NCBI GenBank assembly: GCA_017546665.1
Contig: JAFYSE010000030.1
Coordinates: forward strand, 1-60,768
Direction of reading: 5' to 3'
DNA: 60,768 nt
Origin: Clostridia bacterium
GTDB taxonomy: Bacteria > Bacillota > Clostridia > Oscillospirales > Acutalibacteraceae
A program made the translations under genes and the position numbers. Shown one piece after another: positions 7,100 to 21,645 of the stretch (positions are counted from its first letter, which is position 1; each line of letters begins with the position of its first letter). The notes under the pieces are model-generated. The model had not been told where the DNA came from and did not search any database. It was given only the letters and a program-made list of their open reading frames with translations.

Positions 7100-7175
7100 G
7101 ATCCACTAGCTCAGTTGGCAGAGCACTTGACTTTTAATCAAGGTGTCCGGAGTTCGAATCTCCGGTGGATCACCA
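7100..7175 (+). tRNA. tRNA-Lys (UUU)
   Basis: A complete 76-base cloverleaf: acceptor GATCCAC/GTGGATC, anticodon stem CTTGA/TCAAG with loop CTTTTAA giving anticodon UUU, T-arm CCGGA GTTCGAA TCTCCGG region, and encoded CCA at 7173-7175. No promoter is seen between secG and this gene. A repeat-terminator cassette starts right after CCA. Confidence 0.97.
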
Positions 7176-7176
7176 T

Positions 7177-7214
7177 AAAAAGAAAAGTCGCACGAATGTG
7201 TGGCTTTTCTTTTT
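7177..7214 (+). terminator. First terminator after tRNA-Lys
   Basis: AAAAAGAAAAG pairs with CTTTTCTTTTT (7177-7187, 7204-7214) around a GCAC/GTGT top stem with loop GAAT. The right arm doubles as the T-tract. Confidence 0.88.
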
Positions 7215-7434
7215 ATGCCCGAAGGGCGGAGATTCGAACTCGGAGAGTTTTTGCGTAAAGAAAACGATTCGGTGAATCGTTTTTAGCAAAAAGGCGTGAG
7301 ACATTTATGTCGAACGTGGAGTATGCAAGGCGAAGCCGAAGCAGACGGTCGTTCCGGTGGATCACCATAAAAAGAGAGTACACGAAAGTGTGCTCTTTCT
7401 TTTTATGCCCGAAGGGCGGAGATTCGAACTCGGA
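7206..7434 (+). repeat. tRNA-tail cassette after tRNA-Lys (T-arm inverse copy, structured core, tRNA 3'-end copy, second terminator, truncated next unit)
   Basis: A 39-base block at 7206-7244 recurs identically at 7396-7434; it holds the GCCC-GAA-GGGC hairpin and GGAGATTCGAACTC, the reverse complement of the tRNA-Lys T-arm. Between the blocks lie three hairpins: P1 TTTTTGC/GCAAAAA (7248-7254, 7286-7292) enclosing GTAAAG and AAAACGATT/AATCGTTTT; P2 CGT-GA-GACAT/ATGTC-GA-ACG (7295-7316); P3 TGC-AA-GGC-GAA-GCC-GAA-GCA (7324-7343). Then TCCGGTGGATCACCA (7353-7367), an exact copy of the last 15 bases of the tRNA, and a second terminator. No protein is encoded. The fold matches the cassette after tRNA-Arg. 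This accounts for the whole non-coding gap 7176-7517 except the last 80 bases. Confidence 0.85.
7369..7405 (+). terminator. Second terminator, end of the tRNA-Lys cassette
   Basis: AGAGTACAC-GAAA-GTGTGCTCT flanked by AAAAAG and TTCTTTTT. It differs in sequence from the first terminator while the sequences around it are duplicated. Confidence 0.88.
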
Positions 7435-21262: not shown

Positions 21263-21339
21263 GCGCCGGTAGCTCAGCTGGATAGAGTGTTTGGCTACGA
21301 ACCAAAAGGTCGGGGGTTCGAATCCCTTCCGGCGTGCCA
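21263..21339 (+). tRNA. tRNA-Arg (ACG)
   Basis: A complete 77-base cloverleaf: acceptor GCGCCGG/CCGGCGT (G1-U72 wobble), anticodon stem TTTGG/CCAAA with loop CTACGAA giving ACG (wobble A read as inosine), T-loop GGTTCGAATCC, encoded CCA at 21337-21339. A cassette like that after tRNA-Lys follows. Confidence 0.96.
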
Positions 21340-21384
21340 TTAAAGACGAAATGACCCTTGTGGTTGTTTCGTCTTTAATTTTTA
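21340..21384 (+). terminator. First terminator after tRNA-Arg
   Basis: TTAAAGACGAAA pairs with TTTCGTCTTTAA (21340-21351, 21367-21378), extended by GACC/TGGT-type pairs, then TTTTTAT. Confidence 0.9.
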
Positions 21385-21645
21385 TGTTTAGGGTAAGGGA
21401 TTCGAACCCTGAGAGGGTGAGCACCGTAAAGAAAACATTTCGGGGAAATGTTTTTAGGTGCGAAGTCCGAGGTGGCTATGCCACGAGGACAGTAGATTGC
21501 GAAGCAAGATACATCCCTTCCGGCGTGCCATTAAAAGAGAGTTTGCTTTTTGCAGACTCTCTTTTAATTTTATGTTCTGTAATTTGGGATTCGAACAAGG
21601 AAGGAGCAAATCTATGATTTGCGGAAGAAAACAGTCCGGCGTTTA
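21385..21645 (+). repeat. tRNA-tail cassette after tRNA-Arg, with truncated next unit
   Basis: Begins with GGGATTCGAACCC (reverse complement of the tRNA-Arg T-arm, near 21398). P1 is GCACC/GGTGC (21421-21425, 21457-21461) enclosing GTAAAG and AAAACATTT/AAATGTTTT. P2 is GTCC-GAG-GTGGC-TAT-GCCAC-GA-GGAC (21465-21490). P3 is GTA-GA-TTGC-GAA-GCAA-GA-TAC (21492-21512). The tRNA 3' end plus the next bases (23 bases from 21322) recur exactly at 21513-21535, then a second terminator. A truncated third unit holds GGGATTCGAAC (21586), GCAAATC-TAT-GATTTGC (21606-21622) and TCCGGCGT from the acceptor (about 21635). The whole gap 21340-21772 is otherwise non-coding. Confidence 0.85.
21531..21572 (+). terminator. 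Second terminator in the tRNA-Arg cassette
   Basis: TTAAAAGAGAGT pairs with ACTCTCTTTTAA around a TTGC/GCAG top, then TTTTAT. Stem sequence differs from the first terminator. Confidence 0.88.

Follow-up and report, generated by a model that had tools for sequence, protein, structure and literature searches.

Introduction

Bacterial mobile DNA often inserts at the 3' ends of tRNA genes, and it is assumed to do so by means of recombinases, with the elements bringing a matching tRNA tail. Such tRNA-integrating elements duplicate the tRNA tail, have their junction in the T-arm and can accrete in tandem. An arrangement more like the one reported here is present in Escherichia coli K-12, where 178-bp units behind tRNA-Tyr, each with a copy of the tRNA tail including CCA, make up the tyrT/tyrV repeats (RtT/RttR, RF00391). 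These repeats have gone unexplained for decades. Copies of the final 19 nt of tRNA-Tyr are found at distances of 159, 337, and 515 nt downstream of tyrV, and one more is located in the tyrT-tyrV spacer. In the first unit a 10-nt stretch, GGGGAAGGAT, that is antisense to the copied tail lies 59 nt behind the tRNA, and by eye the later units contain it too. The annotated end of the RttR RNA (1287066-1287236) coincides with the CCA in the first of these copies.

Two further systems bear some resemblance to the units reported here. REP and BIME palindromes are short, intergenic, and multicopy, and the 3' external transcribed spacer (3'ETS) RNAs of tRNA operons, such as the leuZ 3'ETS, are RNAs from behind a tRNA. 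To our knowledge, 3'ETS RNAs do not contain a copied tRNA tail. A table in PMC12306157 lists both rttR and 3'ETS leuZ as containing a REP, and Bosl and Kersten 1991 is named in the reference list of PMC11623569.

Here we describe units of this general plan behind the tRNA genes of Clostridia. They are genuine and structured, occur widely in a single order, and are tailored to the host gene. The units provide many natural replicates for the old puzzle of the E. coli tyrT repeats, and the choice between a regulatory trailer RNA and a selfish element becomes testable across many genomes. No paper about these units was among the matches listed in a search of titles and abstract starts in the open-licence literature.

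Results and discussion

Units behind tRNA-Lys and tRNA-Arg

The window, meaning the whole stretch of DNA that was analysed, comprises 60,768 nt of a contig from a Clostridia bacterium of the Acutalibacteraceae, and all features described here are on its + strand. The gene for tRNA-Lys(ttt) at 7100..7175 (ARAGORN; Rfam RF00005) is the source of the copied tail. It is followed by a terminator-like hairpin, T1 (7174..7217), an inverted repeat with 90% complementarity that was absent from the consensus terminator scan, and then by A (7227..7241), an inverted repeat that is antisense to the T-arm of tRNA-Lys (7150-7164) at 15 of 15 positions. P2 (7237..7249) is an AACTC/GAGTT hairpin, evident in the sequence and the consensus structure, whose 3' strand repeats the 5' strand of the tRNA T-stem. 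P3 (7248..7292), a conserved bulged hairpin identified by covariance model and covariation, is the heart of what we call the type-1 core, and two more core hairpins, P4 (7293..7317) and P5 (7321..7346), were assigned from sequence and fold. The unit closes with E (7353..7367), a direct repeat of the tRNA-Lys 3' end (its final 15 nt, CCA included) that lies within a 23-nt exact match (7353-7375 and 7161-7183), and with a second terminator-like hairpin, T2 (7366..7407), which is an inverted repeat and the only one of the two tRNA-Lys terminators given by the consensus scan on the + strand. A second antisense T-arm (7417..7431, inverted repeat) opens a truncated second unit, downstream of which the sequence is unrelated.

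Most of this anatomy had been recognised in the preliminary description, and its inverse T-arm copy, exact 15-base copy of the tRNA 3' end with CCA, terminators after both tRNA and copy, and second unit that begins and then stops were all recovered, the first with the same complementarity again at 7417-7431. The unit is also gene-less as described, since no open reading frame of at least 60 aa in the list overlaps 7176-7434, and hence no recombinase is encoded there. A repeat reported as a 39-base block at 190-base spacing kept its spacing but not its length: 54 nt are repeated at 93% identity (7191-7244 and 7381-7434), and together with the 23-nt match they form an imperfect direct repeat of ~84 nt (7161-7244 and 7353-7434). 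This repeat flanks a core of ~108 nt (about 7245-7351). The tRNA-Lys copy in the window is partly decayed. Its E does not have the letters needed to close the stem P1, in which A pairs with E, and folded alone the copy was not significantly better than shuffles (z -1.52).

A second unit in the same window lies behind tRNA-Arg(acg) (21263..21339, ARAGORN), and gene and unit together span 21263-21530. Its A (AAGGGATTCGAACCC, 21395..21409) is antisense to the tRNA-Arg T-arm, its type-1 core was matched at 21397..21464, and its E (21513..21530) copies the last 18 nt of tRNA-Arg. Past the second terminator there is another, partial A at 21586..21596. The general plan is gene tail E, terminator T, A, core, E, and T, and units of this plan form tandem arrays. 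Because the plan recurs behind other tRNAs, chance origin of the tRNA-Lys unit is excluded.

Comparison with known systems

Similarity to the E. coli repeats lies in the tandem units behind a tRNA, each closing with a copy of the tRNA 3' end. The E. coli repeats were examined at one locus, whereas the units described here involve many isotypes, many families, two cores, and a site behind rpsI. For searching we built R1, a covariance model of 66 positions that covers the left part of the type-1 core and was derived from an alignment of 21 units; it matches the tRNA-Lys unit at 7229-7293. R1 had no match in the E. coli tyrT locus at E≤0.1. The Rfam RtT model (RF00391) matched four times in the E. 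coli locus and, at gathering score, had no match in the window or in the loci of nine relatives. Judged by sequence and covariance matching, the E. coli tyrT/RtT repeats share the plan and are not of the same family. We group the units with the E. coli tyrT kind of tRNA-tail repeat, and they would become a kind of their own if re-templating of their ends were demonstrated.

In a search with the curated families of Rfam 15 over the unit, in the window and the tested loci, none but tRNA reached the gathering score, and identity with a known Rfam RNA family was rejected. The best sub-threshold match in a permissive search was Leu_leader, with 26.5 of 50 bits and an E-value of 0.0028, over the tRNA plus T1. 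A phage or plasmid origin was also set aside, on weak negatives: a 131-nt query was compared with 50,697 records of phages and 72,556 of plasmids without a match, and a search of IMG/VR contigs for three exact core patterns was likewise negative.

Unlike tRNA-integrating elements, the units have no recombinase gene, are only ~190 bp long, contain both an inverted and a direct copy of the tail, and have ends that follow the local tRNA. Plain site-specific integration fits less well because integrating elements bring their own tRNA tail. When the expectation of one attachment sequence per element was tested, exchange at the same locus was possible and like cores were found with different tails. 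Units also differ from REP/BIME palindromes in being long and ordered, with five stems, ends specific to a gene tail, and a wobble asymmetry. The order of the units is array-like, which brings integron cassette arrays to mind.

Distribution of the type-1 core

At E≤0.1, DNA similarity to the unit was found in 31 of the 39 genus genomes, counting the window's own; in some it was limited to the terminator hairpin. R1 matched 38 of these 39 genomes at E≤0.01 and 34 at E≤1e-5. Beyond the genus, there were matches in 97 of 250 genomes of the family, representing 64 of 135 genera (E≤0.001), in 65 of 245 genomes of the order (E≤1e-4), and in 4 of 299 in a phylum-wide sample that includes the window's own genome. 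The family, order, and phylum counts are probably lower bounds because R1 was trained on sequences of the genus and stricter filters were applied in the larger scans. Among the three outside matches of the phylum sample, A and E by eye fit the preceding tRNA in two (L220 and L222), and in the third (L221) E fits another tail. The preliminary description had staked its reading on similar units lying behind the tRNA genes of relatives and on no known Rfam family fitting, and neither condition refuted it: the covariance-model search that it proposed found the core widespread in genus, family, and order, with similar units common downstream of relatives' tRNAs, and Rfam gave no family but tRNA.

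We examined 137 core matches, made up of 85 of the 104 in a first set (19 below 36 bits were dropped) and 52 of the 65 in a second set (the other 13 either duplicated places of the first set or scored under 36 bits). Eighty of them start no more than 75 nt downstream of a tRNA of the same strand, and these first units follow 12 tRNA isotypes. Another 23 lie further behind a tRNA and, judged by distance, are probably mostly later units of arrays; 11 are behind a truncated tRNA 3' end, and two are at contig edges or Ns. The remaining 21 were unclassed, without a T-arm of at least 11 nt upstream, and include later array members, partial tails, and copies behind rpsI. Within 200 nt of a tRNA, none of the 137 matches runs in the reverse direction. 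Outside this set, units with an inverted P3 core were found behind tRNA-Leu(gag) in one genome (L260, G470).

In the near-complete genome G006, with 43 tRNA matches and 42 tRNA genes examined, a copy of at least 13 nt of the gene's own tail is downstream of 10 of the 42, and by eye four more genes (Pro cgg, Val gac, Lys ttt, and Leu caa) have partial or antisense-only units. Where a tRNA gene does not encode CCA, the copies inspected by eye are also without it. The genome G034 alone gave 49 weak matches to R1, the best with E 0.0037, and at L205 the palindrome AAAACAGTCCGGTGGACTGTTTT was seen away from a unit; from these two cases, a REP-like palindrome resembling P3 may circulate alone.

The core varies as an RNA would

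Of the 21 pairs, 14 have two-sided changes in the alignment of 21 units, in which 96.8% of cells pair. In a larger alignment of 127 matches (115 distinct), two-sided changes are present in 18 of 21 pairs, none of 500 shuffles reached these values, and slid controls had about half the pairing. Read on the tRNA-sense strand, departures from standard pairs were G-U in 111 cells versus A-C in 11 in the large alignment, which was fitted to R1 and may thereby favour G-U; without the most wobble-rich pair the counts were 41 versus 11 (binomial p 3.6e-5). The independent small alignment gave 23 versus 2, and 8 versus 2 without the wobble-rich pair (p 0.11). Many full units folded singly give P1 (A with E), P2, P3, P4, and P5, others partly so, and the order A-P2-P3-P4-P5-E recurs among the units folded and aligned. 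Because of the compensatory changes and the excess of G-U over A-C on the tRNA strand, the core looks to be selected as RNA. The preliminary description had considered a small RNA processed with the tRNA, and the RNA part of that suggestion agrees with this covariation.

A neutral origin is hard to reconcile with such a structure. In that scheme, slippage would duplicate the tRNA tail and terminator, and a REP-like palindrome inserting behind terminators would decorate the result, in keeping with the P3-like palindromes found away from tRNAs (L018 and some of the 21 matches without a T-arm). Yet it explains neither the antisense A nor the fixed place of A before the core, it has the recurring order of the stems against it, and it is strained by both the covariation and the tailoring of the ends described below. 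We regard it as very improbable.

Ends follow the local tRNA while cores are shared

To measure how closely the ends follow the host gene, we used 80 of the 103 tRNA-linked rows, namely the first units, which start no more than 75 nt behind the tRNA. Antisense matches to the unit's own tRNA had a mean maximum length of 13.2 nt versus 7.3 nt for other isotypes, and sense copies one of 18.3 nt versus 6.0 nt. An A of at least 12 antisense nt was present in 65 of the 80 and an E of at least 13 nt in 73. Fewer than 5% of other-isotype tails do equally well as sense copies in 77 of the 80 units, and as antisense matches in only 50 of the 80, the weaker discrimination being due to the resemblance of T-arms to one another. 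In the 73 units with a copy of at least 13 nt, which also served for the terminator-repeat comparison below, A-E pairing averaged 7.8 bp within units versus 4.9 bp with units at other isotypes.

For the 47 of these 80 units whose genome has at least one other, we asked where the most similar core lies. In 16 cases it follows a different tRNA within the same genome, in 19 it follows the same tRNA in another genome, and 12 belong to neither class, so that vertical inheritance is at least as common as movement. For example, the cores of the tRNA-Lys and tRNA-Ser(tga) units in G004 are 90% identical, the maximum found between different tRNAs of one genome. Their identity runs from GAACCC to GTCGAATCCC, the T-loop letters of E, and outside these shared letters each flank is that of its own tRNA. 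The same behaviour was seen in G032 Ser(tga)/Ala, G006 Leu/Val, and G006 Pro/Gln, and in the G006 Pro unit the left end is Pro-specific and the right end is not. We read these patterns as vertical retention combined with transfer to new tRNAs, where new ends would be acquired; at 90% identity, slow co-evolution may account for them as well. Similar cores behind different tRNA genes of one genome also support the guess, made in the preliminary description, of a minimal mobile cassette.

Slow co-evolution would be the history of an old RtT-like 3'-trailer RNA that is inherited with each tRNA and does not move between tRNAs, its A and E kept matched by selection for pairing and by gene conversion with the adjacent tail. 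Such an RNA agrees with the 19 of 47 units whose most similar core follows the same tRNA in another genome, with the covariation of the core and the stronger A-E pairing within units, and with E. coli RttR, which stops exactly at a copied CCA. It does not agree with the 16 of 47 units whose most similar core follows a different tRNA in their own genome, or with the stop of core identity in the T-loop letters. Furthermore, the acceptor part of E appears to be copied though it is mostly without a partner in the unit, some type-2 units (below) seem to keep antisense letters that have no obvious partner, and both a unit-free site in G014 and copies behind rpsI exist. On balance we consider a co-evolving trailer RNA unlikely.

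A second core, a protein-coding host, and the anatomy of a proposed insertion

At orthologous loci between SecG and tRNA-Lys, some species have a different core (GTCC..GGACATAAAATAGGA) in the same frame of A and E. This type-2 core is unrelated to type-1 and shares its plan. Its covariance model, R2, matched 34 of 39 genus genomes at E≤1e-4. Across the order R2 matched none of 197 genomes at E≤1e-4, in a scan that had no positive control; among the genomes listed there, the genus was represented only by the window's own, R2-free genome. We collected 76 type-2 matches (30 of 31 in one set and 46 of 47 in another, the weakest of each being omitted). A tRNA precedes 60 of these, with 30 being first units and 30 later ones, and the remaining 16 lack an intact upstream tRNA. 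Some type-2 units appear to retain antisense letters without an obvious partner inside the unit.

In four genomes (L102, L118, L145, and L142), a core with the type-1 P3 is located behind rpsI, a gene read from its sequence as encoding ribosomal protein S9, and there the core is inverted. The end of rpsI (CAGTTCTCAAAGAGATAA or a variant) is duplicated behind the inverted core, in some cases together with the terminator. What the targets appear to share is a GTTC hairpin in the gene tail, together with a terminator. A role of the core as sense RNA is weakened at these four loci and at L260 by its inverted orientation. The preliminary description had also considered an array of attachment sites; the duplicated tail is as expected of one, but both ends follow the local tRNA, and because a related plan occurs behind rpsI the site is not strictly a tRNA attachment site.

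Comparing the sequence behind the tRNA with that behind E shows where the duplication ends. In some single units the direct repeat ends near the start of A, as in L065 (52 of 53 identical, at -3), L088 (43 of 43, at +1), L096 (47 of 48, at +1), and L055 (49 of 56, at 0). Elsewhere among the 73 units it stops earlier, in arrays it extends across A, and many of the 73 have two terminators that have ceased to resemble each other. The simplest reading of these sequences is that A plus core was inserted, that the gene tail and terminator were duplicated in the process, and that A is a short back-copy of the tail.

Sites without a complete unit were also found. The close relative G014 has tRNA-Lys and its terminator and no unit. 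A relative without the tRNA-Lys unit whose SecG is 95% identical has a different downstream gene, and it was rejected as a clean empty site for that reason, leaving it an imperfect one. By eye, a remnant behind tRNA-Arg in G014 consists of A fused to E without a core, and one in G009 of A alone. Like terminators occur in different order at the tRNA-Arg loci of different species, which speaks against any one simple scheme, and at the Arg and rpsI loci the terminators vary between species in order or kind. This variation fits the insertion of a ready-made [E-T-A-core] at the same locus equally well as it fits re-templating.

A ready-made insert of this sort would be a mini integrative element, a gene-less [E-T-A-core] circle that is specific to one tRNA, carries its own tail and terminator, and is inserted in the T-loop by a recombinase that acts in trans and is of a type found in integrative elements. 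Duplicated tails and tandem arrays are what such an element would produce, as are arrays in which terminators differ and like ones are found elsewhere in other species, and the 11 of 137 core matches behind truncated tRNA tails resemble what integrated elements leave. Genes that by eye are tyrosine-recombinase-like are located within a few hundred bases of the same tRNAs at L191, L207, and L273. However, insertion at a different tRNA would leave a hybrid tRNA, yet A and E follow the local tRNA; the phage, plasmid, and IMG/VR searches with the 131-nt query and the three core patterns had no match, and a related plan is present behind rpsI. We therefore hold a mini integrative element to be improbable. 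All three of these loci with recombinase-like genes are orthologues of the tRNA-Lys or tRNA-Arg locus, whose tRNA gene is followed by units in other species.

A proposed cassette that spreads among gene tails

The explanation that we favour, and think probable as a whole, is that the units are RNA-structured cassettes, non-autonomous, which move from one gene tail to another and have their ends re-templated there. That they are spreading elements is supported by the observations above; re-templating we infer. The proposed cassette has no gene and consists of an RNA-structured core that would spread among the 3' ends of tRNA genes and apparently rpsI, with both ends adopting the sequence of whichever gene it comes to lie behind. 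The unit would be transcribed by read-through from the tRNA, A would pair with E to close the core by P1, and the 3' end would be trimmed at the copied CCA as in a tRNA, a step in keeping with the annotated end of E. coli RttR at its copied CCA. Spread could proceed through a single-stranded intermediate, either RNA/cDNA or ssDNA, whose ends would prime on the conserved GTTC of the T-loop. From there, the right end would copy the gene tail and terminator, producing the direct repeat, and the left end would copy a short stretch back, producing the antisense A. Ends re-templated from each new tRNA would represent a different route to gene targeting.

A broader proposal, which we advance only tentatively, is that the units belong to a class of selfish RNAs. 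Members would be gene-less cassettes of ~130-200 nt behind a T-arm-like GTTC hairpin and terminator, with the left end rewritten as antisense and the right end as sense copy of the local tail, which would leave them at every site with a functional tRNA-like 3' end and a fold that closes. The class would include several unrelated cores, and the E. coli tyrT repeats might be a stranded member.

Other sequence features near tRNA genes and units

Several additional features were noted at the loci examined. Type-1 units at L100 and L116 (G000:C50 and G012:C1) are behind sequences not recognised as tRNAs, and at L100 a Gut-1 RNA (RF01706) is located close downstream. Behind tRNA-Met in G006 (L235, C1:451556-451628) there is a longer stretch with a 16-nt copy of the tRNA tail at its end and an antisense match of only 8 nt, which is possibly a third kind of unit. 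A recurring GCGGCA..TGCCGC stretch was seen just behind the tRNA CCA or E at L184, L044, and L135, and is perhaps another conserved feature of tRNA tails; at L184 and L044 a ATCTTTTTCGTACC stretch is near it. Finally, a recurring TCGTCGTC(A/G)CAAGCT or (A/G)TAAGCT stretch is joined to the end of E at L281, L284, and L301.
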